A stretch of 64,000 nucleotides of DNA from a virus. Below are positions 46,740 through 64,000 of the stretch, in pieces. The position numbers and the translations under genes were made by a program. The stretch is taken from IMG/VR virus record IMGVR_UViG_3300042890_001842, positions 48,012 to 112,011 of that record, one strand, 5' to 3'. A model generated the notes under the pieces. The model ran no database searches. It saw nothing but the letters and a program-made list of their open reading frames with translations, and was not told the origin of the DNA. Numbering within the stretch: the first letter of the stretch is position 1; the number at the start of each line of letters is the position of its first letter.

Positions 46740-48686
46740 CTATGCTGAAATATCTACAATTTCACAATTGCCGTCAGAAGTACAGGCTAGAGTTTGTGTG
46801 CCAGAAGTTCCATCTTCTGTTTCATAAAAAGACAAATCCTCCCAACGAATATTTTTTGGCATTTTTGCAACAAGTGCTTCGTATTCTTCTCTTGTTACTT
46901 CTTGGTATGGAGCTTGCTTATATGAATGGTCTGAGTGAGGCAAAAATGAAATACCTGATACCTCATCAAAGTGCTTATAGACCCATGCTCCAACTTCCAT
47001 CCATTCGTCTTCTTTTACAGAAACTGTAATTGAAGGCTTATGTTCACACCATGCACGTTGGTAAACTAACCAAGTATTTAAATGTTCTATTGCTGTTAAA
47101 TCATTTCTAGTAATTGCACCTTCTGGAGCTTTTACTGGGAATGAGAATACGTGAGTATCATTTGGCTTCATCACATCGTCTTCAACTGGAATTCCAACTT
47201 CCTTTAGAAATGTTGATAGCGGATCTTTCTTGTCGCCACGAACTGTACGAATATAATAATCTGAATGCCAAGCATGCATTCCTGAAGAAACGCCAACCAG
47301 CTGAGAAACTGTTCCAGAAGGTTTTACACATGTAATAGCTGCAGACTCAGGGATACCAATCTTTCCAGCAATGTCTGAATTAACCTCTCTTGCTTTTTCT
47401 CTTAGTGTCATTAGAAATGCTTCTAGAGAAACAAGGTCTTCTTTACCTGACATAAACTTATGCCCAAATTGTCCAGTCAAAGAAACTCCTAGTAGTCTTT
47501 CTTCTTCTGTGTTGTCCTTCCAAATTTTACGAAGGTACTTAAAGTCTGTTAGCGTTGACTGCCACGTTCCAAGAATAGTTGCAAGTTCAACTTTCCTTTC
47601 AATATCTTTCTTTGTATCACTTTCACGTAATACGACTTCTGAAAGATTACAAAACTGATAAGGACGTAGAATAATTTCGGAACATGGGTTTGTTCCATAA
47701 TGTACTTCTGGATCTCTGCGTCCAAACTTTGCCGCTTGCTTTTGCGCTGCTGCAACATTATAAATTCCACGTTCGCCTGACTTTGAGTCATATAATGATT
47801 TCCATTCTGCAATAAATTGTTCCATCTCTGGTTTTCTAGAATAAGCAACAGAGTTGTTTGAAAGTGCACGTTGTGAGTTATTCTCCCACCAGTTACCTGA
47901 TTTAGCTTGAGCCATCTCGATGTCATTGATGTTTGAAAGAGAAATCATTGCAGAGCGGCGAACTCCTCCGACAACAACAACTTCACCAATCTTACACATT
48001 AAATCATGAGCTTCAATTGGCTTTAATTGACGACCTGATGCCGACTTAAACTTTGCAACTGTAAAATCAAATAAATTGATTAATGGTTGAGGGCCTGATG
48101 AACGTCCGCCCATTGTCTTAAGACGTGCACCTGCTGGACGCAACTTACTTACATCAATTGCTGGAACTTGTCCTGCCCACAACATTGCAAGTAGTTCACG
48201 ATAAGCTTTTGCCCAACCAGTTTTTGAATCTTCAACAACAATGACTGTTGTAGACTTTTCAAATGACTCTGGGACGGAAGGAAGCTTATTAACATACTTA
48301 TACTCAACAGAGAATCCAACACCAGTACCACACATTAGAATATACATAGTCTCATCAAATGATCTTGGTGAATCAACTGGCACAAATGAACAATTATATC
48401 CAGCAACATGATCTCTATCTAATGCAGCTCCTGCAGTCATTACTGATCGCATCGATGGCATTACGTTTCTGTCATATACTGCTTGCTTAAGTTCTTCTAC
48501 TAATTTTGATTCTGGCTTATATGAGTGTTCCTTGAAAAGGTGATTCAGCATAAAATTAAAATATCGATCTACTGTCTCTCCCCATGTTTCACGACGATTT
48601 TCTTCTTGTAGCCATCTTGCATATCGTGATAGTGCAATAAAGTTTTCATACGGGTTTTCAATAGTTCTTGACATTTTCAGTGACAC
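46740..48686 (-). CDS. nrdJ: Adenosylcobalamin-dependent ribonucleoside-triphosphate reductase, class II monomeric type (648 aa)
   Basis: Catalytic residues can be aligned with the Lactobacillus RTPR enzyme: Cys99 (GYNCSFV), Asn333, Cys335 and Glu337 (TNPCSEI), Cys346 (YQFCNLS), and redox Cys635/Cys641 near the C-terminus (LACTSDGNCEI). MCGTGVGFSVEYKYVNKLP is typical of the family. It makes deoxynucleotides for phage replication and needs host cobalamin and a reductant; no thioredoxin gene is seen here. It is about 90 residues shorter than the Lactobacillus enzyme. The start is GTG at 48686 or ATG four codons later. Confidence 0.93.
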   Translation of the reverse strand: MSLKMSRTIENPYENFIALSRYARWLQEENRRETWGETVDRYFNFMLNHLFKEHSYKPESKLVEELKQAVYDRNVMPSMRSVMTAGAALDRDHVAGYNCSFVPVDSPRSFDETMYILMCGTGVGFSVEYKYVNKLPSVPESFEKSTTVIVVEDSKTGWAKAYRELLAMLWAGQVPAIDVSKLRPAGARLKTMGGRSSGPQPLINLFDFTVAKFKSASGRQLKPIEAHDLMCKIGEVVVVGGVRRSAMISLSNINDIEMAQAKSGNWWENNSQRALSNNSVAYSRKPEMEQFIAEWKSLYDSKSGERGIYNVAAAQKQAAKFGRRDPEVHYGTNPCSEIILRPYQFCNLSEVVLRESDTKKDIERKVELATILGTWQSTLTDFKYLRKIWKDNTEEERLLGVSLTGQFGHKFMSGKEDLVSLEAFLMTLREKAREVNSDIAGKIGIPESAAITCVKPSGTVSQLVGVSSGMHAWHSDYYIRTVRGDKKDPLSTFLKEVGIPVEDDVMKPNDTHVFSFPVKAPEGAITRNDLTAIEHLNTWLVYQRAWCEHKPSITVSVKEDEWMEVGAWVYKHFDEVSGISFLPHSDHSYKQAPYQEVTREEYEALVAKMPKNIRWEDLSFYETEDGTSGTQTLACTSDGNCEIVDISA

Positions 48687-55995: not shown

Positions 55996-57069
55996 CTATA
56001 TAAGCTTAATATGTAGAGTTTTTAACTGGTTAAATGCCCCCATAAATAGCTGATCCTTAGACTGCCCATAAATTATTTCATTATTCTTTGCATAGTGTCT
56101 AATGATATAGTCGAAAGCAAAGAAATGGAAAGTATATGGGTTAAAGTAGATGAATCTACTTTTATCCCCGCCCCACATTGAATGAATAGCATTACTACTA
56201 GGTACTGTAAGTATTTCCTCAGCATTTCTTGCATGAAGAACCTGTTGTTTAAATGTCAGTTCCCATGGATTAATTACTGTAAATCCATTTGATACAGCAT
56301 ACTCTAAAATTGTATCGTAATCTTCCTGCTTTAAGTATGTTTTAAGATGTGGTTGATCATATCCATGTTTAACCTCTGGAATATTTAAAAATATTTTTTT
56401 AGGATATATATTATCATCTTGAGTAATATTCTGGTCAACTGCTTTTTTAATGTAATCCAATATCTTTAATGTAAATCCAATAGCTGAGATACCTGTTGTA
56501 TTTCTAGCTGTATCAGGATCACGAGGAAGTTCTTCCTGCCGATTTCCTGTAATAGCGTGAGCAAGAAAATCATTCTGATCTGGATTAAAAAAGTACAAGT
56601 TATCAAAACTTAATTCATTACACTTAGATGCAGCTATAATATTACTAATGTCGACATTTAATATCTCAGCAATCTCTTTTGTAATCATAGAAGTCTCATC
56701 AGTAGATATTTCAGTCAACTGCAATATTGGTATAATGTTTAGATCTGGGATTATCTCTTTCATATAGAGAGCTTGTCCATATGCATCTGCTAGTATGTGA
56801 AATATATTGTGATGTGCTAGCCATAGTATATATGAGTTCCCAGAAAAATGTATTTTCTTATCTTCCCCGCCTGATTTTTGATTTACAAACTTGATATCCT
56901 TCAGATGAAATATATCATGCTGATAAGTTTTGTTATCTGTAGTGTAATAATCTTTTCTTGTTATCGTTGAGTTCTCTTTTAGATCTGGATAGCCTTTTAA
57001 CTTATTGTGTTCTATCCACCCGCCATTTTTTAAATAGTGTAGCTTGTAATCTAATTTGAAATCCAGCAT
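55996..57069 (-). CDS. GT61-like glycosyltransferase, copy 3 (357 aa), leaderless
   Basis: AEEILTVPSSNAIHSMWGGD followed by RFIYFNPYTFHFFA matches the C-terminal GT61 core; SYILWLAHHNIFHILADAYG resembles the acceptor-side motif of copy 2. It is convergent with copy 2, 2 bp away, with no room for a separate terminator. The ATG is 6 nt after TGC-TATACT and has no ribosome-binding site. Confidence 0.7.
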   Translation of the reverse strand: MLDFKLDYKLHYLKNGGWIEHNKLKGYPDLKENSTITRKDYYTTDNKTYQHDIFHLKDIKFVNQKSGGEDKKIHFSGNSYILWLAHHNIFHILADAYGQALYMKEIIPDLNIIPILQLTEISTDETSMITKEIAEILNVDISNIIAASKCNELSFDNLYFFNPDQNDFLAHAITGNRQEELPRDPDTARNTTGISAIGFTLKILDYIKKAVDQNITQDDNIYPKKIFLNIPEVKHGYDQPHLKTYLKQEDYDTILEYAVSNGFTVINPWELTFKQQVLHARNAEEILTVPSSNAIHSMWGGDKSRFIYFNPYTFHFFAFDYIIRHYAKNNEIIYGQSKDQLFMGAFNQLKTLHIKLI

Positions 57070-57075
57070 TTCTAA

Positions 57076-57084
57076 AGTATAGCA
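57076..57084 (-). promoter_or_regulatory. Extended -10 promoter of GT61-like copy 3, leaderless
   Basis: TGC-TATACT on the minus strand, then TTAGAA and the ATG. Confidence 0.62.
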
Positions 57085-57221
57085 TATTCAGTTTTTAGTC
57101 GACTAGTATTTAGGATTTATAAAAATGTTAATAAATTTTTATTTTGTATGATACAGGATATTTAAATGTCCGATTTATCTATTTAGTGCGCCCATATGTG
57201 TCCTATCTCACACAATTAACC

Positions 57222-57237
57222 TGTGATTTAACTCACA
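57222..57237. promoter_or_regulatory. CRP/GlxR-like palindrome
   Basis: TGTGA-TTTAAC-TCACA. Centre 58.5 bp before the first base of the -10 box of the following promoter. Confidence 0.6.
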
Positions 57238-57270
57238 ATGTCCGAATTGTACTAACTTTCGAATTGCTAT

Positions 57271-57293
57271 TTGTCAGACCCCCCCTGTATAGT
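57271..57293 (+). promoter_or_regulatory. Early promoter, copy 1
   Basis: TTGTCA, 11 bp, TATAGT. A weak TTGCTA is present at the -35 position (18 bp). Precedes the 65-aa gene with its AAAGGTAGG site. Confidence 0.6.
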
Positions 57294-57332
57294 TATTACT
57301 ATAAAGATAAACAATGAAAGGTAGGTCAATAA

Positions 57333-57530
57333 ATGACTACACTAACTACTACACAGGTATTCGATTACCTAGATGCTAAAGGCATCTGCGCTATGGATAA
57401 CATCTGCGTATTCTGCTCAATCCGTATGGATGGATGGGATAGGACATGCCGTAGATGCCGTGAGCATAAGGGCGTTATGTCCGTCACGGATGCCGTTCAA
57501 CAGTACGGAATAGACATCCTAGGCATGTGA
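57333..57530 (+). CDS. Small four-Cys zinc-finger-like protein (65 aa)
   Basis: C-x2-C (NICVFCSIRMD) and C-x2-C (RTCRRCREHKG) 12 residues apart suggest one zinc-binding knuckle. First gene of the early-type region. Could bind nucleic acid or host proteins; unknown. Confidence 0.7.
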   Translation: MTTLTTTQVFDYLDAKGICAMDNICVFCSIRMDGWDRTCRRCREHKGVMSVTDAVQQYGIDILGM

Positions 57531-57541
57531 TGTAAACCACA
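57526..57541. promoter_or_regulatory. CRP/GlxR-like palindrome (one mismatch)
   Basis: TGTGA-TGTAAA-CCACA overlapping the stop of the 65-aa gene. Centre 52.5 bp before the -10 box. Confidence 0.55.
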
Positions 57542-57568
57542 CGCTTCCGACAGCGTGTCGTCTTGATA

Positions 57569-57591
57569 ATGTCGGCGCCCCATGATAGTAT
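57569..57591 (+). promoter_or_regulatory. Early promoter, copy 2
   Basis: ATGTCG, 11 bp, TAGTAT with TGA before the -10. TTGATA is 17 bp before the -10 box, so this copy also has a good -35. A GCGTGTCG element lies just upstream. Confidence 0.65.
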
Positions 57592-57624
57592 TCCATTATT
57601 AGAAACTAACGAAAGGACATAACA

Positions 57625-57825
57625 ATGTCAGCTAATGTATACTCAATTCAATCTATCCTAATCGGCAAGGCTTATCGTAGCCGTTCAATTCAAGGTATCA
57701 TAGAGGACGCTGAGCCTCGCCCTAATGTCTACTACGCAGACGCTGAGGCGTATGCCGTCCGTGTCCGTCCTACTAATGGCGGGCGTGATGAATGGCGCAC
57801 CTTAGCGGTAGCCGATGTGAGGTAA
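57625..57825 (+). CDS. Small early protein (66 aa), paralogue of the gene at 60120
   Basis: MSANVYSIQSILIGKAYRSR is nearly the same as the opening of the 69-aa protein at 60120; both continue with a small beta fold ending in R-T-L-A-V / R-Y-L-A-V. The start has an ACGAAAGG site. Related by pattern to the 49-aa gene at 61986 (I-G-.-.-Y-.-.-.-.-.-G-.-I). Function unknown. Confidence 0.75.
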   Translation: MSANVYSIQSILIGKAYRSRSIQGIIEDAEPRPNVYYADAEAYAVRVRPTNGGRDEWRTLAVADVR

Positions 57826-57831
57826 CTCACA
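57816..57831. promoter_or_regulatory. CRP/GlxR-like palindrome
   Basis: TGTGA-GGTAAC-TCACA, perfect arms, overlapping the stop codon of the 66-aa gene. Centre 52.5 bp before the -10 box. Confidence 0.65.
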
Positions 57832-57858
57832 TACACGCTACGGCGTGTCGTCTTGATA

Positions 57859-57881
57859 ATGTCGGTCAAGTCTGATAGTCT
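57859..57881 (+). promoter_or_regulatory. Early promoter, copy 3
   Basis: ATGTCG, 11 bp, TAGTCT; TTGATA 17 bp before the -10; CGGCGTGTCG immediately upstream (57841-57850). Confidence 0.62.
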
Positions 57882-57957
57882 TACAGACATAACAATTAAA
57901 TAAGGGTATGAGCCTAGCAAATAAGACCCTGTAACTACTAACGAAAGAAGAAAACTA

Positions 57958-58074
57958 ATGAACCTAGACGAATTCAAGGCGCATGTCCTAGCGACACGCC
58001 AAGCAAGCAAAAGCGAGGCTTTGTCAGCCCTATCCGCTACAATTACAACAACAACAACGAAAGAAGGTAAATAA
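57958..58074 (+). CDS. Small hypothetical protein (38 aa)
   Basis: MNLDEFKAHVLATRQASKSE then a Thr-run (ITTTTTKEGK). ACGAAAGAAG precedes the ATG. Its stop is followed directly by the ATG of the next gene, giving a coupled series. Includes an inverted CGACACGCC element inside the frame. Confidence 0.55.
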   Translation: MNLDEFKAHVLATRQASKSEALSALSATITTTTTKEGK

Positions 58075-58260
58075 ATGACTAAATGGGATACTATTCAAGC
58101 AGACATAGCAGATGCTTACACACACTTTGATGAGGAAGATGCTTACAATCAAATGCTAGATGATGAAGAAGATACTTTTGGTTTTATCAAGGCTATCAAC
58201 ATAGACCACCTAACAGATGAACAATTAGATGAAGTATTCGACATGTTTGGAGATAAATAA
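58075..58260 (+). CDS. Small acidic protein (61 aa)
   Basis: Highly acidic and helical (DAYTHFDEEDAYNQMLDDEE, HLTDEQLDEVFDMFGDK). Acidic small early phage proteins often mimic DNA or bind host enzymes; no specific evidence here. GAAGG precedes the ATG. Confidence 0.7.
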   Translation: MTKWDTIQADIADAYTHFDEEDAYNQMLDDEEDTFGFIKAINIDHLTDEQLDEVFDMFGDK

Positions 58261-58416
58261 ATGAAGATAACATACTCACTTTGGCAAGGTACTCAATTAC
58301 TAAGCACAAATAATAAGGCAGATAAGCCAGAAGAGATTCTGGCGATAATGAAAGAATTAGAAAAACTAGGTAATGGGTTTTCATTTATCGTTAGAGAAGT
58401 AGAGATAAACAAATAA
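58261..58416 (+). CDS. Small hypothetical protein (51 aa)
   Basis: MKITYSLWQGTQLLSTNNKA ending FSFIVREVEINK, an alpha/beta fold. Follows the acidic gene without any gap; the TAATG overlap with the next gene indicates coupling. Too short for a family call. Confidence 0.6.
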   Translation: MKITYSLWQGTQLLSTNNKADKPEEILAIMKELEKLGNGFSFIVREVEINK

Positions 58417-58556
58417 TGACACTAAGAATAAATGACTATGGCTTAGAGTTTGATACCTATGTTTGCTACATAGCGTTATCGTGGCAGGTACTTATTCCCG
58501 CTACCATTGCCCTAATTGCTTACAAGATTTACAAGAGAAAGAAGATAACTAAATGA
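58416..58556 (+). CDS. Small single-pass membrane protein (46 aa)
   Basis: A hydrophobic segment (VCYIALSWQVLIPATIALIA) is followed by a basic tail (YKIYKRKKITK), predicting one transmembrane helix with the C-terminus in the cytoplasm. Overlaps both neighbours by 1-4 nt. Function unknown. Confidence 0.6.
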   Translation: MTLRINDYGLEFDTYVCYIALSWQVLIPATIALIAYKIYKRKKITK

Positions 58557-58681
58557 CTATGAATAGACTACTAACTAGCCTAGTCCAATTGGCTATCGCT
58601 ATTCCCGCCCTGTATCTAGGGCGTATGGCGTGGCACATGTTCAAGGAAGATGTGAGAGAACTCACAAAAGATTTTCGCTAA
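58553..58681 (+). CDS. Small membrane-associated protein (42 aa)
   Basis: MTMNRLLTSLVQLAIAIPAL has a hydrophobic helix, then a charged tail (FKEDVRELTKDFR). The ATGA overlap with the previous gene makes these two membrane peptides a coupled pair. The CRP-like palindrome at 58651 lies within its last codons. Confidence 0.58.
   Translation: MTMNRLLTSLVQLAIAIPALYLGRMAWHMFKEDVRELTKDFR
58651..58666. promoter_or_regulatory. CRP/GlxR-like palindrome inside a gene end
   Basis: TGTGA-GAGAAC-TCACA. It is 152 bp from the next -10 box, so it is less clearly linked to a promoter than the other copies. Confidence 0.5.
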
Positions 58682-58685
58682 TCTA

Positions 58686-58786
58686 CGGCGTGTCGGCTTG
58701 ACAAAGTCAAGCTGGCCCGCAAAGGAGTGGGGGCCCCAATGTGTTTAAGATCACATTAAAAAATCCCCTGAATTTTCGGCGTGTCG
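58686..58786. repeat. Early intergenic module, copy 1 (CGGCGTGTCG to CGGCGTGTCG)
   Basis: Starts with CGGCGTGTCGGCTTGACA, then GCCCGC-N8-GGGGGC (hairpin), a CRP-like half-perfect palindrome, CCCCTGAATTTT and a second direct CGGCGTGTCG. The same order occurs at 59887 and 61089. Confidence 0.6.
58740..58755. promoter_or_regulatory. CRP/GlxR-like palindrome (one mismatch)
   Basis: TGTGT-TTAAGA-TCACA; centre 63.5 bp before the -10 box of early promoter copy 4. Confidence 0.5.
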
Positions 58787-58793
58787 TAGAAAT

Positions 58794-58816
58794 TTGTCAG
58801 TCTGTTATGGTAGTAT
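58794..58816 (+). promoter_or_regulatory. Early promoter, copy 4
   Basis: TTGTCA, 11 bp ending TGG, TAGTAT. No good -35. The CGGCGTGTCG decamer lies 7 bp upstream. Confidence 0.6.
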
Positions 58817-58845
58817 TCCAATATCTACTAACGAAAGGTCTACTC

Positions 58846-58938
58846 ATGAACAAATGTTCTTCATGCGGTCAAGACACTACTCAGTTTATTACTGATGATG
58901 GTGAATACTACTATCCAATGTGCGGGGAGTGCTACTAA
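58846..58938 (+). CDS. Zinc-ribbon-like micro-protein (30 aa)
   Basis: CSSCGQD near the start and CGECY at the very end form a four-Cys zinc ribbon. The ATG follows ACGAAAGG by 7 nt; a longer frame upstream would run through the promoter and is not credible. TAATG overlap with the next gene. Confidence 0.6.
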   Translation: MNKCSSCGQDTTQFITDDGEYYYPMCGECY

Positions 58939-59126
58939 TGACTAAAATTTTCTGCGGTAATCGTAACTGTACCGAATTTATTCTTGATGATGCTACTTAT
59001 GACTATCAGTCTTGGGTCTGTAATGAATGCTACGATAAATCAGAAATGGAATTTTTTGGCTGGCGTGATATTGATTCCGACCATATGAATACACGCATGG
59101 CGGATGCAGAAATGGGGGATTTATAA
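58938..59126 (+). CDS. Four-Cys protein (62 aa)
   Basis: MTKIFCGNRNCTEFILDDAT with CNECYDKSE further on: two C-x2-4-C pairs as in the 30-aa upstream protein (both have F-I-.-D-D-.-.-Y and C-.-E-C-Y), so a duplication. Acidic C-terminus. One-base overlap with the GP88-type gene suggests a coupled set. Confidence 0.68.
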   Translation: MTKIFCGNRNCTEFILDDATYDYQSWVCNECYDKSEMEFFGWRDIDSDHMNTRMADAEMGDL

Positions 59127-59875
59127 TGTCAGACGTCTTAGATATAATCTACCCCATGAAACTAAAACGCTCAAATGATCGTAAAGTTGCCAACCTTGTA
59201 ACTAAGAATGGCAAGCAGGCTGCAATTGCTAATACTTTCGGCCTGCCCGCTGGTAAAGAATTCTCATGCCCTGGCGCTACTAGCATATGCGAAAGCGTAT
59301 GCTATGCAGGGAAATTGGAAAAGCTCTTCAAGGGTGTTAAAACTAATCTTCTGCACAATTGGGAATTGTTACGCAATGCGGATATGGATACCATGCTCGT
59401 ATTGCTTGACGATATGATTATTGAATTTATCAATGATTGTGAAAAGAAAGACGCACCTAAATTATTCCGTATCCACTGGGACGGAGATTTCTTTAACGAT
59501 ACTTATACATATGCGTGGAAATCTGTTATTGCTAATCATCCTGATGTTCAATTTTGGGTTTATACACGTGTTAAGTCTGCGGCTCTTATTCTAAAAGATA
59601 TTTCTAATCTATCACTGTATTACTCTACTGATGATGATAATAAAGAAATTGCTCATGACTTAAAACTAAATTCTGGTATCCGCCTTGCTTATCTGGGAAA
59701 GACTTTCGCTGTTACTGAAAACACAATGAAAGAATTAACTGGAAAGCCTGGCGCTAAATGTCCTGAGAATATGAAAAGTATTCCGCTAATTTCTTCCGCT
59801 GGATCCGCATGTGTATCATGTGGGTTATGTGTTTATGGAAAAGCAGATATTAGATTTTCTGCGAGTAAAAAATAA
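59126..59875 (+). CDS. GP88-family actinophage protein (249 aa)
   Basis: ANTFGLPAGKEFSCPGATSI and CESVCYAGKLEKLF give the C-P-.-.-T-.-.-C-.-.-.-C-Y-A-.-K cysteine motif of the GP88 (gene product 88) family found in actinophages. LFRIHWDGDFFNDTYTYAWK and VQFWVYTRVKSA form the conserved core, and CVSCGLCVYGKADIRF supplies more metal-ligand cysteines. It may bind a metal cluster. The molecular function is unknown. Confidence 0.8.
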   Translation: MSDVLDIIYPMKLKRSNDRKVANLVTKNGKQAAIANTFGLPAGKEFSCPGATSICESVCYAGKLEKLFKGVKTNLLHNWELLRNADMDTMLVLLDDMIIEFINDCEKKDAPKLFRIHWDGDFFNDTYTYAWKSVIANHPDVQFWVYTRVKSAALILKDISNLSLYYSTDDDNKEIAHDLKLNSGIRLAYLGKTFAVTENTMKELTGKPGAKCPENMKSIPLISSAGSACVSCGLCVYGKADIRFSASKK

Positions 59876-59886
59876 TCTAAAAGGTA

Positions 59887-59994
59887 CGGCGTGTCGACTT
59901 GACAAATCGGCATGCCGCCCGCATATATGTGGGGGCTGTGGATAACTTACGAGAAGCTGTGGAAAACCCTGAAAATTCTGTGGACGACACGCCC
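59887..59994. repeat. Early intergenic module, copy 2, flanked by inverted decamers
   Basis: CGGCGTGTCG at the left end and the inverted CGACACGCCC at the right. Between them: TTGACA, GCCCGC...GGGGGC hairpin, three TGTGGA boxes at 21-bp steps and CCCTGAAAATT. Compare 61089-61215. Confidence 0.65.
59937..59987. other. Phased DnaA-box-like sites, set A
   Basis: TGTGGATAA (59937-59945, exact reverse complement of TTATCCACA), TGTGGAAAA (59958-59966, one mismatch) and TGTGGACGA (59979-59987, weak) repeat every 21 bp. Possible origin or regulatory site. Confidence 0.5.
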
Positions 59995-60001
59995 GAAATC
60001 T

Positions 60002-60017
60002 TGTGAGTTTTATCACA
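60002..60017. promoter_or_regulatory. CRP/GlxR-like palindrome
   Basis: TGTGA-GTTTTA-TCACA; centre 72.5 bp before the -10 box. Confidence 0.62.
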
Positions 60018-60064
60018 TGGCTTGAGCGTCTCATATCGTGGAATTACTGGCTAGTAATATGAAA

Positions 60065-60087
60065 ATGTCAGTGGGTTTTGGTACAAT
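60065..60087 (+). promoter_or_regulatory. Early promoter, copy 5
   Basis: ATGTCA, 11 bp ending TGG, TACAAT. Precedes the 69-aa gene with AACGAAAGG. Confidence 0.62.
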
Positions 60088-60119
60088 ACTCTTATTCAAC
60101 AAACGAAAGGCGGACTTAA

Positions 60120-60329
60120 ATGTCAGCAAATGTCTATACAATCGAAAGCCTACTAGTAGGAAAAACCTATCGCTCAAAGTCTCTAACTGGAGAAATCATT
60201 GATGCAGAAAAAACAAATGATGTCTGGTATGCAGACTGCGATACATACAGGGTGCAAGTTAGACCTCATTACTCAGCACCGCTAAATCTTAAAGATACAT
60301 ACCGCTATTTAGCAGTTAAAACCTCATAA
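60120..60329 (+). CDS. Small early protein (69 aa), paralogue of 57625
   Basis: MSANVYTIESLLVGKTYRSK aligns with the 66-aa protein along its length, with an extra loop before RYLAVKTS. Both have their own copy of the early promoter and an ACGAAAGG ribosome-binding site. Function unknown. Confidence 0.75.
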   Translation: MSANVYTIESLLVGKTYRSKSLTGEIIDAEKTNDVWYADCDTYRVQVRPHYSAPLNLKDTYRYLAVKTS

Positions 60330-60401
60330 ATAAATAATCGAAACAGGGGCAGTTTAGAGGGAGTCCTCGCCCAATGTCGTAAGTAAGAACCCTCACACAA
60401 T

Positions 60402-60424
60402 TTGTCAGTGGTAACTGATACAAT
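60402..60424 (+). promoter_or_regulatory. Early promoter, copy 6
   Basis: TTGTCA, 11 bp ending TGA, TACAAT. No CRP-like palindrome upstream; a GAGG-GAGT-CCTC hairpin with outer GGGC/GCCC (60346-60373) precedes it and may end the previous transcript. Confidence 0.58.
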
Positions 60425-60457
60425 AACTAAACAAACAAACGAAAGGGAAAACCTAAA

Positions 60458-60607
60458 ATGGGAAACATACTAGATGAAATGAGCGGAACAATTTCCGTTG
60501 TAACATGCGAGGATTGCTTAGGGTTTGGAGCAATTTTTTGGGGTAATGATGAGGATTACCATGTCGAGCCTTGCGATTGCGTAAATGATGAGATTGGAGA
60601 TTACTAA
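60458..60607 (+). CDS. Small Cys-rich acidic protein (49 aa)
   Basis: C-x2-C (TCEDCLGFG) and C-x-C (EPCDCVNDE) with acidic residues; a minimal zinc-binding knuckle like those of other early genes here. CGAAAGGG precedes the ATG. Function unknown. Confidence 0.65.
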   Translation: MGNILDEMSGTISVVTCEDCLGFGAIFWGNDEDYHVEPCDCVNDEIGDY

Positions 60608-60608
60608 G

Positions 60609-60812
60609 ATGTATCAGATTACTTTATCTTATGACGGAAAGCCACTTCATTGGAATAAAAACTATGTAGATGCCTTAGAAGCATTTGAGGCATTTGCTAA
60701 GTTTACAGATGTTGGATTTGCTAACGAATACTCAACGATTAACCTATCAATGCCAACAGGCAAAATGTACACAAAAGTAATTGACCGCATGGGAAAGGTA
60801 ACAATTAAATGA
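60609..60812 (+). CDS. Hypothetical protein (67 aa)
   Basis: MYQITLSYDGKPLHWNKNYV with a helix (DALEAFEAFAKFTDVGFAN) and a beta end. The start is one base after the stop of the 49-aa gene, with GGAG 9 nt upstream; eight earlier in-frame codons overlap that gene. Function unknown. Confidence 0.7.
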   Translation: MYQITLSYDGKPLHWNKNYVDALEAFEAFAKFTDVGFANEYSTINLSMPTGKMYTKVIDRMGKVTIK

Positions 60813-61000
60813 TGACACGAAAAGACTATGTAGCAACCGCAGAAATTCTAAAGTATGCTAGCGATAAATCGCACCCCGCTTTATTTTCTAAAATCGTAAA
60901 TGATTTTGCTGAAATGTTTGCGAAAGATAATCCACGATTTGATGTAACGAGATTTCATGAAGCGAGTGGATACAATGTTCCAAAATTCACTTCGAGATAA
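60809..61000 (+). CDS. Hypothetical protein (63 aa)
   Basis: Helical (MMTRKDYVATAEILKYASDK, then FSKIVNDFAEMFAKDNPRFD, ending FHEASGY). Proteins with the R-.-D-Y-.-.-.-A-.-.-.-.-.-.-.-F-.-.-.-F-A-.-.-F-.-.-D-N-P-.-F-D-.-.-R-F layout are frequent among phage early genes, of unknown function. ATGA overlap with the previous gene. Confidence 0.75.
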   Translation: MMTRKDYVATAEILKYASDKSHPALFSKIVNDFAEMFAKDNPRFDVTRFHEASGYNVPKFTSR

Positions 61001-61112
61001 AGTAAAGCGAATTCAGGAGTTGCGGAGATCAAATGCCGCAACCCCTGTACGCAATAAGAAAAAATATTCAAGAAAAACAAAACATAAGCGGCGTGTCGAT
61101 TTGACAGATTGA
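60975..61112 (+). CDS. Small basic protein (45 aa)
   Basis: MFQNSLRDKVKRIQELRRSN followed by a strongly basic tail (NKKKYSRKTKHKRRVDLTD). It overlaps the previous gene by 26 nt and its end runs into the CGGCGTGTCG element, so it may be fortuitous. A small nucleic-acid-binding protein is conceivable. Confidence 0.4.
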   Translation: MFQNSLRDKVKRIQELRRSNAATPVRNKKKYSRKTKHKRRVDLTD

Positions 61113-61215
61113 TCAGCTGCCCGCAATAGTGTGGGGGCATAGAGGCTTTTAAGTCAAGCACCAAAACTCCCTGAAAATTGTGAGGTTTATCACAAAATAA
61201 ATCTGCGACACGCCG
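61089..61215. repeat. Early intergenic module, copy 3, flanked by inverted decamers
   Basis: CGGCGTGTCG at the left and its exact inverse CGACACGCCG at the right end. Inside: TTTGACA, GCCCGC...GGGGGC, CCCTGAAAATT and the CRP-like palindrome. Same order as copy 2 but without DnaA-like boxes. Confidence 0.65.
61179..61194. promoter_or_regulatory. CRP/GlxR-like palindrome
   Basis: TGTGA-GGTTTA-TCACA; centre 61.5 bp before the -10 box. Confidence 0.62.
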
Positions 61216-61230
61216 AAGGTGAATTAGTAA

Positions 61231-61253
61231 ATGTCAGTAGGCCATGCTAAAAT
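61231..61253 (+). promoter_or_regulatory. Early promoter, copy 7
   Basis: ATGTCA, 11 bp ending TGC, TAAAAT. Confidence 0.6.
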
Positions 61254-61282
61254 ACTCTTATTCCAACAACGAAAGGTATCAA

Positions 61283-61486
61283 ATGAAAATCGAACACAAC
61301 CTAAAGTTTGTAACAGAGTTTGCAGACAATCACCCAGTAACAGCACAAATGCTAAACATGCCTGAACCTATGCGTGTATTGCTATTAGAGTCAATGCTAA
61401 AAGAATTACTTGCACCACGCTTGCAACCTCTATTAGATGAAATCAATGCAGGTGGGTCATACGCAATTCTAAAGGTGGCTGAATAA
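61283..61486 (+). CDS. Hypothetical helical protein (67 aa)
   Basis: MKIEHNLKFVTEFADNHPVT then LLLESMLKELLAPRLQPLLD; amphipathic helices throughout. The ATG follows ACGAAAGG; earlier in-frame codons overlap the promoter. TAATG overlap with the next gene. Confidence 0.7.
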   Translation: MKIEHNLKFVTEFADNHPVTAQMLNMPEPMRVLLLESMLKELLAPRLQPLLDEINAGGSYAILKVAE

Positions 61487-61761
61487 TGGGATACACAACA
61501 GCATTAGCACTTGCAGATGACCTATCATTAGAGGCAGGGTTAGCCTATCACTTACAGGCTAATCATTACCCACCCGTTCCCGTTGCTATGGTGCAACCTT
61601 GCATAGATGCTATTGATGCATACTATGATGAGGACTATGGTCGTGAAGTATCTTTACCTGAAGGTATCTCATGGCGTGGGCAGGTAACTGCACCAGCACA
61701 TGCAATAATTGATGCACACCACTTAGATGCTTGGCTAGTAAGCGAGGACTACGATGAGTAA
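61486..61761 (+). CDS. Hypothetical protein (91 aa)
   Basis: Contains LADDLSLEAGLAYHLQANHY and PAHAIIDAHHLDAWLVSEDY, an acidic, helix-rich protein with several His residues. No family recognised. AAAGGTGG lies upstream of the ATG. Confidence 0.7.
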   Translation: MGYTTALALADDLSLEAGLAYHLQANHYPPVPVAMVQPCIDAIDAYYDEDYGREVSLPEGISWRGQVTAPAHAIIDAHHLDAWLVSEDYDE

Positions 61762-61894
61762 TCTTTATTCTATCTTATCTACTTGGTATCCTGAAGGAGA
61801 CTTCAACGAAGCTGAATTGTGGGATGCTATCGCTGAAAACGAAGGCGTTGATGTAAATGAGATCATGGATGGCGATCTAACAGACTACCTGTGA
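61754..61894 (+). CDS. Small acidic protein (46 aa)
   Basis: MSNLYSILSTWYPEGDFNEA ending DVNEIMDGDLTDYL. It overlaps the preceding gene by 8 nt, and the stop overlaps the CRP-like palindrome. Acidic, no recognised family. Confidence 0.65.
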   Translation: MSNLYSILSTWYPEGDFNEAELWDAIAENEGVDVNEIMDGDLTDYL

Positions 61895-61905
61895 TGTATC
61901 TCACA
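61890..61905. promoter_or_regulatory. CRP/GlxR-like palindrome
   Basis: TGTGA-TGTATC-TCACA; centre 52.5 bp before the -10 box. Confidence 0.62.
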
Positions 61906-61912
61906 CGACACT

Positions 61913-61930
61913 CCCCTCAGAAATGAGGGG
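61913..61930 (+). terminator. Hairpin with GAAA loop, probable terminator
   Basis: CCCCTCA-GAAA-TGAGGGG, a 7-bp stem with a GNRA tetraloop, the same loop as the terminator of the major tail gene. A U-tract is absent, so termination efficiency is uncertain. Confidence 0.5.
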
Positions 61931-61932
61931 AA

Positions 61933-61955
61933 ATGTCAGTGGGCTATTGTATAAT
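61933..61955 (+). promoter_or_regulatory. Early promoter, copy 8
   Basis: ATGTCA, 11 bp, TATAAT. Confidence 0.65.
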
Positions 61956-61985
61956 ACTACCAACAACAAAACGAAAGGAAACAAA

Positions 61986-62135
61986 ATGACAACACTAGAA
62001 ATCGGACAGACATACACCACTTCAACAAGCGGTGTAACAGGAACAATCGTGGCGGTAGATAATCACCCAAGCGGTGTAAATCGTGTCTTGCTTGATGTCA
62101 ATGGCAAAGAGCGTTGGACAAGCGTTCCAAACTAA
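61986..62135 (+). CDS. Small beta protein (49 aa)
   Basis: MTTLEIGQTYTTSTSGVTGT with LLDVNGKERWTSVPN. The I-G-.-.-Y-.-.-.-.-.-.-.-G-.-I spacing recalls the two YRS proteins, which suggests a shared small SH3-like fold. ACGAAAGG is 7 nt before the ATG; codons before it overlap the promoter. Confidence 0.68.
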   Translation: MTTLEIGQTYTTSTSGVTGTIVAVDNHPSGVNRVLLDVNGKERWTSVPN

Positions 62136-62184
62136 TTCCTGATAAGGAAAAGTCCTGAGCATGACTACTAAAACTGCTCACAAT

Positions 62185-62207
62185 TTGTCAGACCCCTATG
62201 CTATACT
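62185..62207 (+). promoter_or_regulatory. Early promoter, copy 9
   Basis: TTGTCA, 11 bp ending TGC, TATACT. TGAGCA...TGCTCA (62157-62181) forms a hairpin just upstream. Confidence 0.65.
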
Positions 62208-62242
62208 AACCAACCAACCAACCAAACGAAAGAGGAAAATAA

Positions 62243-62668
62243 ATGGCTAGAAACGGAAAATCTATTAGCGTGAAAATCGCTACACCAAAGGTAATCAAGG
62301 CACTAGAAACACGCCTTGCTGAATTAGAAAAGAACTACGCTACACAGGGCGAGAACGAAGCAAAGTATCAGAAAGCCCGTGATAAGTGGCAAAAAGAAAT
62401 TGGCAAGTGGGCTATGTCTAACTTCTCAAAGGCTGAGAACCTTCGTACAAACTATCGTAATTGGAACAAAACTCTCAATGTAGATTTTGACCTTACAGTA
62501 AATGAGAGCGACTTCCCTAAAGAACCTGAAAAGGATTTTGAGACAATTCACCAGCACACATACAATGAGCAGAAAGAGGAAATCACGAACGCAATTCGTA
62601 TCCTCAAGATGACAGATGAGGAAACAGTAAATACCTCAACCTATAACGCTATTGCTCGTTATCTGTAA
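62243..62668 (+). CDS. Hypothetical helical protein (141 aa)
   Basis: MARNGKSISVKIATPKVIKA then a long coiled-coil-prone helix (LETRLAELEKNYATQGENEA) and a Trp-rich segment (WQKEIGKWAMSNF, YRNWNKTLNVDFDL). It has its own promoter and terminator hairpin. A DNA-binding or structural role is possible; unknown. Confidence 0.75.
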   Translation: MARNGKSISVKIATPKVIKALETRLAELEKNYATQGENEAKYQKARDKWQKEIGKWAMSNFSKAENLRTNYRNWNKTLNVDFDLTVNESDFPKEPEKDFETIHQHTYNEQKEEITNAIRILKMTDEETVNTSTYNAIARYL

Positions 62669-62677
62669 ATAAATAGT

Positions 62678-62706
62678 GGGAGGGCTAGACACACTCTAGC
62701 CCTCCA
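62678..62706 (+). terminator. Terminator after the 141-aa gene
   Basis: GGAGGGCTAG pairs with CTAGCCCTCC around a 7-nt loop (perfect 10-bp stem). No U-tract follows; the next promoter -10 box comes at once. Confidence 0.6.
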
Positions 62707-62715
62707 TGCTATAAT
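62686..62715 (+). promoter_or_regulatory. Promoter of the 85-aa gene
   Basis: TAGACA, 18 bp, TATAAT with TGC before the -10. The -35 lies in the terminator stem. This promoter lacks the TGTC element of the other early promoters. Confidence 0.55.
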
Positions 62716-62742
62716 TCGTATCCCTACTAACAAAGGAACAAA

Positions 62743-63000
62743 ATGAAAAATCGTTATCGTATCGAAATCTATGATGATGTAAAAGCAAATGATTTGACTA
62801 TTTATTCTGAGTCAAATGTAGATAAAGAATACTTAACTGAAATGGTATTCTCTAACTTAAGACAATTCTCTGGAAACATTCGTGCATACGTATATGACAA
62901 TGTAAAGAAAAAGAAAACCACTGCACTGATTCTACCAATGGAATTGTTAGCTAAATATAGAAATTACAAACTTACTTCTGATGAAATACTAATGAATTAA
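62743..63000 (+). CDS. Hypothetical protein (85 aa)
   Basis: MKNRYRIEIYDDVKANDLTI with LTEMVFSNLRQFSGNIRAYV: alpha/beta fold, acidic then basic. ACAAAGGAAC precedes the ATG. Followed by a strong hairpin. Function unknown. Confidence 0.72.
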   Translation: MKNRYRIEIYDDVKANDLTIYSESNVDKEYLTEMVFSNLRQFSGNIRAYVYDNVKKKKTTALILPMELLAKYRNYKLTSDEILMN

Positions 63001-63007
63001 TAATTAT

Positions 63008-63030
63008 GAGGCGGGATCCGTGCCCGCCTC
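63008..63030 (+). terminator. Terminator after the 85-aa gene
   Basis: GAGGCGGG pairs with CCCGCCTC (8 bp), then ATATTATTTT. Confidence 0.8.
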
Positions 63031-63059
63031 ATATTATTTTGGCCCGCAAAGGTAAGGGG

Positions 63060-63089
63060 TTATCCACAGCTTTAAGAGAGTTATCCACA
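63060..63089. other. Phased DnaA boxes, set B
   Basis: Two perfect TTATCCACA boxes start 21 bp apart (63060 and 63081). The CRP-like palindrome begins another 21 bp on (63102). Confidence 0.6.
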
Positions 63090-63101
63090 ATCCCCGAAAT
63101 T

Positions 63102-63117
63102 TGTGAGATTGATCACA
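63102..63117. promoter_or_regulatory. CRP/GlxR-like palindrome
   Basis: TGTGA-GATTGA-TCACA; centre 62.5 bp before the -10 box. Confidence 0.65.
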
Positions 63118-63154
63118 CGAGACAATTCGGACAAATGACTAACAAGACTAGTAA

Positions 63155-63177
63155 ATGTCAGTCCCCTATGTTATACT
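63155..63177 (+). promoter_or_regulatory. Early promoter, copy 10
   Basis: ATGTCA, 11 bp ending TGT, TATACT. Drives the TIGR03299-type gene. Confidence 0.65.
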
Positions 63178-63209
63178 CAATCCAACAACCAATCGAAAGG
63201 AAATAAATT

Positions 63210-64000
63210 ATGGCTCACAATCTAGAAGTCGAAAACGGCGAAGTTGCTTTTGCGCTACGTGGAAAACCAGCATGGCACAATTTAGCAAATCGCATCTTTA
63301 CACAAGATGAAGAAGTAACTACACAAACAATGCTTGAAGAGGCAAAGTTAGCAAATTGGAATGTTCGTCTATCTCCAATCGCTGAGCACATTCCAGAATC
63401 ATGGAATGATGTTTCTACTGCATCTCTTGTATTGCGTGACAATCCATTCAATGGCGGAACTGATGTTCTTGCAACTGTTGGAAAGCGTTATAAGCCTGTG
63501 CAGAATGAAGAATTGTTTGCATTCGCTGATGCAATTCATGATGCAAACGCTGACTGTCGCTGGGAATCTGCTGGTTCTCTAAAGCAGGGCAAAGTTGTAT
63601 TTGGTACTGTTGATATTCCTCGCACAATGGTGCTTGACCCTAGCGGTGCTAATGATGAAACTAAGTTGTATCTAATTGTTTGGACATCTCATGACGGGTC
63701 TGTTGCTGTTCAGGCTGCTGTTACTCCTGTTCGTGTTGTATGCCAAAACACTTTGAATCTTGCAATGCGTAATGCAAAGCAATCTTTCAAGATTCGCCAC
63801 ACGCAATCTGTTGAAGGTCGCATTCAAGTTGCTCGTGAGACTCTTGGTCTTGCTCTTGGATACTTTGATGAATTTGAGAAGGAAGCGCAAGCACTCTACA
63901 CTCAATCAATTACTGATTCAGAATTCTCAAAGTTGATTCAAACAATCTACCCAAAGCCTGAGAAGGATTCAAAGGGTGCTTTGAAGAAGTGGGAAAACAA
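63210..64000 (+). CDS. TIGR03299/DUF932-type phage protein, N-terminal part (runs off right edge)
   Basis: Start MAHNLEVENGEVAFALRGKP after ATCGAAAGGAAA. Motifs include AWHNLANRIFTQDEEVTT, VGKRYKPVQNEELFAFADAI, ESAGSLKQGKVVFGTVDI, VAVQAAVTPVRVVCQNTLNL and a later I-.-.-R-H-T segment, the core of the phage/plasmid-like TIGR03299 (DUF932) family. About 263 residues are present and the frame is open to the edge. Members are common in actinophages and plasmids, with uncertain, possibly DNA-related function. Confidence 0.85.
   Translation, partial: MAHNLEVENGEVAFALRGKPAWHNLANRIFTQDEEVTTQTMLEEAKLANWNVRLSPIAEHIPESWNDVSTASLVLRDNPFNGGTDVLATVGKRYKPVQNEELFAFADAIHDANADCRWESAGSLKQGKVVFGTVDIPRTMVLDPSGANDETKLYLIVWTSHDGSVAVQAAVTPVRVVCQNTLNLAMRNAKQSFKIRHTQSVEGRIQVARETLGLALGYFDEFEKEAQALYTQSITDSEFSKLIQTIYPKPEKDSKGALKKWEN

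Follow-up and report, generated by a model that had tools for sequence, protein, structure and literature searches.

CRP/GlxR-type palindromes at helically phased positions upstream of presumed early promoters in a clade of actinobacterial phages

The DNA analyzed here is a 64,000-nucleotide stretch (the window) spanning positions 48012–112011 of the 112,011-bp virus record IMGVR_UViG_3300042890_001842 (G000). Its early region carries an array of palindromes, TGTGA-N6-TCACA, that is conserved across a clade of related phages, and the palindromes lie upstream of promoters at distances that follow the turn of the DNA helix. The clade palindrome is identical to the consensus site of the actinobacterial regulator GlxR and of CRP. 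We put at roughly two in three the probability that a CRP/GlxR-family protein of the host activates many of the early promoters from class-I-like upstream positions, a reading built on sequence comparison. That the genes are early is suggested by their place in or next to the terminal repeat of the genome, the small size of their open reading frames (ORFs) and −10 boxes of the host type.

With at most one mismatch allowed, the window contains ten palindromes, every one of them inside 57197–63117, and the other 57 kb contain none; a preliminary description of this DNA had likewise noticed none elsewhere. Shuffled versions of the window held a mean of 2.78 such palindromes, and 0 of 100 reached ten. 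The same description had counted six perfect and three one-mismatch copies; the latter were found again (57197–57212, 57526–57541 and 58740–58755), and a recount raised the perfect copies to seven (57222–57237, 57816–57831, 58651–58666, 60002–60017, 61179–61194, 61890–61905 and 63102–63117). A first-order Markov model predicts 0.009 perfect sites for the early region of 7 kb; for all 64 kb it predicts 0.135.

The eight distances previously listed between palindrome centers and the first base of the −10 box were reproduced exactly. They rest, like all promoter distances and start positions given here, on −10 boxes inferred from the sequence; the promoters were recognized by sequence pattern and all lie on the plus strand. 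A distance of 52.5 bp occurs three times, linking the palindrome at 57526 to the promoter at 57570–57591 (TGTCGG-N10-TAGTAT, with TTGATA at the −35 position), the palindrome at 57816, which overlaps an ORF end, to 57860–57881 (TGTCGG-N10-TAGTCT), and that at 61890 to 61934–61955 (TGTCAG-N10-TATAAT). The remaining distances are 58.5 bp (57222 to the promoter at 57272–57293, TGTCAG-N10-TATAGT), 61.5 bp (61179 to 61232–61253, TGTCAG-N10-TAAAAT), 62.5 bp (63102 to 63156–63177, TGTCAG-N10-TATACT, with a partial extended −10), 63.5 bp (58740 to 58795–58816, TGTCAG-N10-TAGTAT) and 72.5 bp (60002 to 60066–60087, TGTCAG-N10-TACAAT). The 63102 palindrome belongs to the promoter of the DUF932 gene and is kept in relatives. 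The one-mismatch copy at 57197 lies 25 bp 5′ of the 57222 palindrome and 83.5 bp from the −10 box of the promoter at 57272, and the copy at 58651 lies within a gene end, as had been noted, with the next promoter 152.5 bp away. Three further promoters in the region have no palindrome: 58022–58043 and 60403–60424 (both TGTCAG-N10-TACAAT) and 62186–62207 (TGTCAG-N10-TATACT). Pattern matches at 59127 and 60121 overlapped start codons and were taken as spurious.

The record ends in an exact terminal direct repeat of 3,269 bp, whose right-hand copy occupies 60732–64000 of the window and equals positions 1–3269 of L001, the other end of the record. The early region therefore carries on at that other end, where one further perfect palindrome (L001 3935) lies 52.5 bp from a promoter and two one-mismatch copies lie at 51.5 bp (L001 3757) and 70.5 bp (L001 5627). 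A one-mismatch match at G000 46813 falls outside the early region.

The array is shared by relatives. In 80 close loci from viral contigs (DUF932 protein identity 91–96%; 1.13 Mb in total), the perfect palindrome occurs 475 times, against at most 65 copies for any other 5-base arm at the same spacing and at most 18 for the same arms at spacings other than 6. The bases inside the arms are symmetric as well, with T/G beside the left arm in 81% and its complement beside the right arm in 94% (TGTGAT..ATCACA, as in CRP sites). Each of nine long relatives carries 4–8 palindromes within a single 4–8 kb segment, and a reversed control pattern gave 0 copies in these nine records. Chance enrichment in an AT-rich region has a practically negligible probability and is refuted by these counts, given that 7 kb hold seven perfect sites where 0.009 would be expected and that the 475 copies in the relatives compare with no more than 65 for any other arm.

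Promoters were defined without reference to the palindrome, by TGTCAG-N10-TANAAT, a pattern with 740 copies in the relatives when the spacing is 10 and no more than 9 for any other spacing. The core consensus reads WWWTGTCAG-T-S-S-N7-TATAAT, with the two S positions mostly GG or CC. It has TG at −15/−14 in 64% and 79%, so that the −10 is mostly of the extended type, and only a trace of a −35, without a consistent box, although TTGATA occupies that position in some promoters. The TGTCAG box sits rigidly at −28 to −23 and is specific to the clade. A standard sigma-70 scan returned 20 matches versus 19.8 in shuffles, which indicates that the TGTCAG motif and not a −35/−10 pair defines these promoters. 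The coupling of palindromes to promoters, first claimed for the window, holds clade-wide: a promoter follows at most 150 bp downstream in 305 of the 319 distinct palindrome contexts, and no context has an upstream promoter on the opposite strand. Searching IMG/VR with the compound pattern yielded at least 120 stretches versus 7 for a reversed-arm control. Spread to unrelated viruses was considered and rejected: among the matches listed, nearly all belong to the same clade, and the few of low similarity look like single chance matches or divergent members.

Across the clade, the distance from palindrome center to −10 box peaks at 41.5/42.5, 51.5/52.5, 61.5–63.5, 71.5–73.5, 83.5 and 94.5 bp. Relatedness was reduced by clustering the spacers between palindrome and promoter into 60 dissimilar families, over which the best period was 10.4 bp; 0 of 20,000 uniform random placements were equally periodic. 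Orthologous promoters often differ in spacing by about 10 or 20 bp (e.g., 62.5 versus 42.5 bp within one family), and the alignment of loci L051 and L006 shows a clean 10-bp indel. A more distant member of the clade, L084, retains the main phases (51.5, 72.5 and 82.5 bp). The helical spacing proposed for the window thus extends to the clade; one of its distances, 58.5 bp, is not a whole turn and belongs to a half-turn class discussed below.

The protein that reads the palindrome would most simply be a host factor. TGTGA-N6-TCACA is the GlxR consensus (PMC7999487), as had been pointed out for the arms, and GlxR of C. glutamicum and CRP of M. tuberculosis and E. coli share it (PMC7999487, PMC5449483); actinobacterial CRP proteins bind such sites, and S. 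coelicolor CRP does not (PMC5449483). The preliminary description had also allowed for a phage-encoded mimic of the CRP family. This candidate was rejected: no cNMP_binding or HTH_Crp_2 domain was found in this phage or its nine long relatives, and the search for a CRP-type domain was equally empty in the Rhodococcus phage Trina (NC_042040; L234, L235). Trina is an independent case of CRP-type palindromes, with five perfect copies, four of them distinct; three of these four lie at its terminal-repeat end (repeat length 2,860 bp). Inspected by eye, they either stand directly 5′ of TTGACA-/TAGACA-like boxes or keep a distance of about 32 bp to a −10-like box, a layout that appears closer to class II. 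Since neither Trina nor the clade encodes a CRP-type domain, a host factor is the simplest reading for the binder. Four Streptomyces relatives hold a single palindrome copy between them and no array, which fits the failure of S. coelicolor CRP to bind the consensus and speaks for host CRP. The palindrome is absent (0 copies) from seven other actinophage genomes, of Gordonia, Rhodococcus, Microbacterium, Arthrobacter and Mycobacterium phages. A phage protein with a different fold, or a protein that enters with the virion, might instead read the palindrome and activate transcription, given that most early proteins have no assigned function, that small helix-turn-helix (HTH) proteins are present in the genome and that the TGTCAG box must likewise have a reader. 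We consider this rather improbable, as the sequence is the same as the site of a host protein family and the palindromes recur in Trina without the TGTCAG promoter and without a CRP-type domain.

If the palindromes are sites for the GlxR/CRP orthologue of an actinobacterial host, a CRP-family dimer would sit upstream of a weak core, composed of the TGTCAG box and a mostly extended −10 with no consistent −35, and would touch host RNA polymerase, presumably through its alpha subunit, from a single helical face, in the manner of class I CRP promoters. Polymerase recruited in this way would turn on many early genes using a protein already present in the cell. Where an extended −10 is paired with a poor −35, promoters as a rule depend on contacts further upstream, which CRP provides at galP1 (PMC2613000); with TG at −15/−14 and no clear −35, the clade core is of the type that needs such contacts. 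The host protein could also bind and repress or gate the early promoters, delaying infection in some metabolic states. Host cyclic AMP (cAMP)-CRP does repress the pir, dam and recE promoters of phage T1 (PMC6737242), and the same consensus serves equally as a CRP repressor site. The palindromes, however, are found 40–95 bp 5′ of the −10 without covering the core, which itself lacks a clear −35, and periodic upstream placement suits activation better, so that we regard repression as unlikely.

Several observations weigh against activation by host CRP from class-I-like positions. The half-turn class at 57.5/58.5 bp is recurrent and breaks the helical rule; its members are 5–6 bp off close orthologues at 51.5/52.5 bp, and CTGCGACACGCC often lies in their spacers. 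Site centers at E. coli class I CRP promoters are at −61.5 (lac), −71.5 and so on. The inferred centers in the clade, about −64.5 and −74.5 relative to starts deduced from sequence, have a phase about 3 bp longer, a shift that could come from a different start-site register or polymerase. Shared intergenic cassettes also make neighboring promoters partly interdependent. Finally, a perfect palindrome is missing within 100 bp of 526 of the 858 distinct TGTCAG promoters, and the palindrome is thus not essential for this promoter class: it is TGTCAG that marks out the class, while the palindrome would modulate part of it. With one mismatch allowed, a palindrome lies within 130 bp of 711 of 1162 TGTCAG promoters, counted without reduction to distinct ones.

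Two features linked to the palindromes go beyond the preliminary description: the TGTCAG core box and, upstream, the 9-mer TTATCCACA, which we take to be a DnaA box of the E. coli-type consensus. It has 388 copies in the relatives, compared with a mean of 15 and a maximum of 79 for permuted 9-mers. A perfect copy lies within 200 bp of 135 of 332 distinct palindrome promoters (41%) versus 17 of 526 promoters without a palindrome (3%; Fisher p 1e-45, not corrected for relatedness). The boxes are found mainly 23.5–26.5 and 43.5–47.5 bp 5′ of the palindrome center, two turns apart. In the window, TTATCCACA occurs at 59937–59945 on the minus strand, upstream of the 60002 palindrome, and on the plus strand at 63060–63068 and, 21 bp further on, at 63081–63089. 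No DnaA C-terminal domain was found in ten phage records. The link between DnaA boxes and palindromes may stem from an old duplicated cassette as well as from function.

The association allows a more elaborate, tentative model, which we hold to be possible though doubtful. The promoters would carry composite enhancers, in which two master regulators of the host, CRP/GlxR for the carbon and energy state and DnaA for the state of replication, would act from phased sites over a clade-specific core whose new TGTCAG box (−28 to −23) replaces the −35 and has its own reader. It is very unlikely, in our estimate, that the palindromes and DnaA boxes are chiefly cassettes for replication or DNA organization that lie near promoters incidentally. 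The enrichment of TTATCCACA and its link to the palindromes would suit such a role, as would the recurrence of cassettes with GCCCCC/GGGGGC and GGCGTGTCG elements; against it, the helical phasing refers to the −10 box and persists over dissimilar spacers, and 197 of 332 palindrome promoters have no DnaA box.

Further copies of TTATCCACA were noted at L001 8825, 8837 and 8861, and this cluster of three (L001 8825–8869) could be an origin. The elements GGCGTGTCG and CGACACGCC recur near window positions 57550, 57845, 58688, 58780, 59888, 61090 and 61207, frequently as inverted copies on either side of the palindrome, and the same intergenic cassettes contain GCCCCC...GGGGGC pairs. A tRNA-Asp gene adjoins the DUF932 gene in the early region (L001 3522–3596), and an Rfam search found 0 RNA-structure matches in window 56900–64000.

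The clade is a large group of environmental actinobacterial phages from many metagenomes. The portal and DUF932 proteins are nearest to those of Streptomyces phages of the Stanwilliamsviridae type (~50–58% identity), and each of the 10 long clade records tested carries one WhiB gene, a mark of actinophages (PMC6802176). The habitat is probably freshwater, and the host is presumably a low-GC actinobacterium. L084 (CAINGU010000031.1), a 110-kb contig of the same clade and a 72% relative, lies inside a metagenome-assembled genome (MAG) labelled as a cyanobacterium; because the only WhiB of this MAG sits on the phage contig, a cyanobacterial host was ruled out and the contig is probably misbinned. 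Locus L098 (IMGVR_UViG_3300010160_000003) and similar loci represent a divergent branch whose early promoters are found on both strands and in which repeated AATGAGCCTAGCAAATAA elements flank the palindrome. The Stanwilliamsviridae phages Jay2Jay and Muntaha share DUF932 and portal homologues and genomes above 110 kb with the clade and differ from it in having neither the palindrome array nor TGTCAG promoters. Trina shares a DUF932 homologue, a genome above 110 kb and palindromes near the terminal repeat; it differs in its more class-II-like palindrome layout and in lacking TGTCAG promoters. In these Streptomyces phages and Trina, as in the clade, DUF932 or palindromes lie near terminal repeats.

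As at class I CRP promoters, the clade sites lie upstream of the core on one helix face; unlike GlxR/CRP class I systems, they are phage-borne, form a whole array of perfect sites, include half-turn exceptions and accompany a TGTCAG box in the core. T4 middle promoters (PMC2988021) resemble the clade core in a box that begins with WWW-TG and is centered near −30 in place of the −35 and in an often extended −10. The T4 MotA box is TGCTTtA at 12 ± 1 bp from the −10, whereas the clade box is TGTCAG at 10 bp, so the clade promoters are not of the T4 type; moreover, the clade box serves the presumed earliest genes, unlike that of T4 middle promoters. Action of host CRP on phage promoters, as proposed for the clade, is already known from T1 (PMC6737242), where the promoters are repressed, the control is tied to prophage induction and no phased array is described. 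What appears to be new is a composite early promoter shared across a clade, with its array of perfect, phased CRP-type sites and linked DnaA boxes; searches of the open-licence literature turned up no description of CRP or DnaA sites at the early promoters of actinophages.

Lytic phages are usually thought to use strong, regulator-free early promoters. Here, a large actinophage clade appears to tie early expression to a global regulator of the host, with sites placed to match the helix. If this holds, infection would be coupled to the host's carbon and energy state and, should the two-regulator reading also hold, its start would follow both the metabolic and the replication state of the cell. 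The hundreds of natural promoters in the clade provide a data set from which to learn what spacing rules govern a CRP-type activator working with an actinobacterial polymerase.

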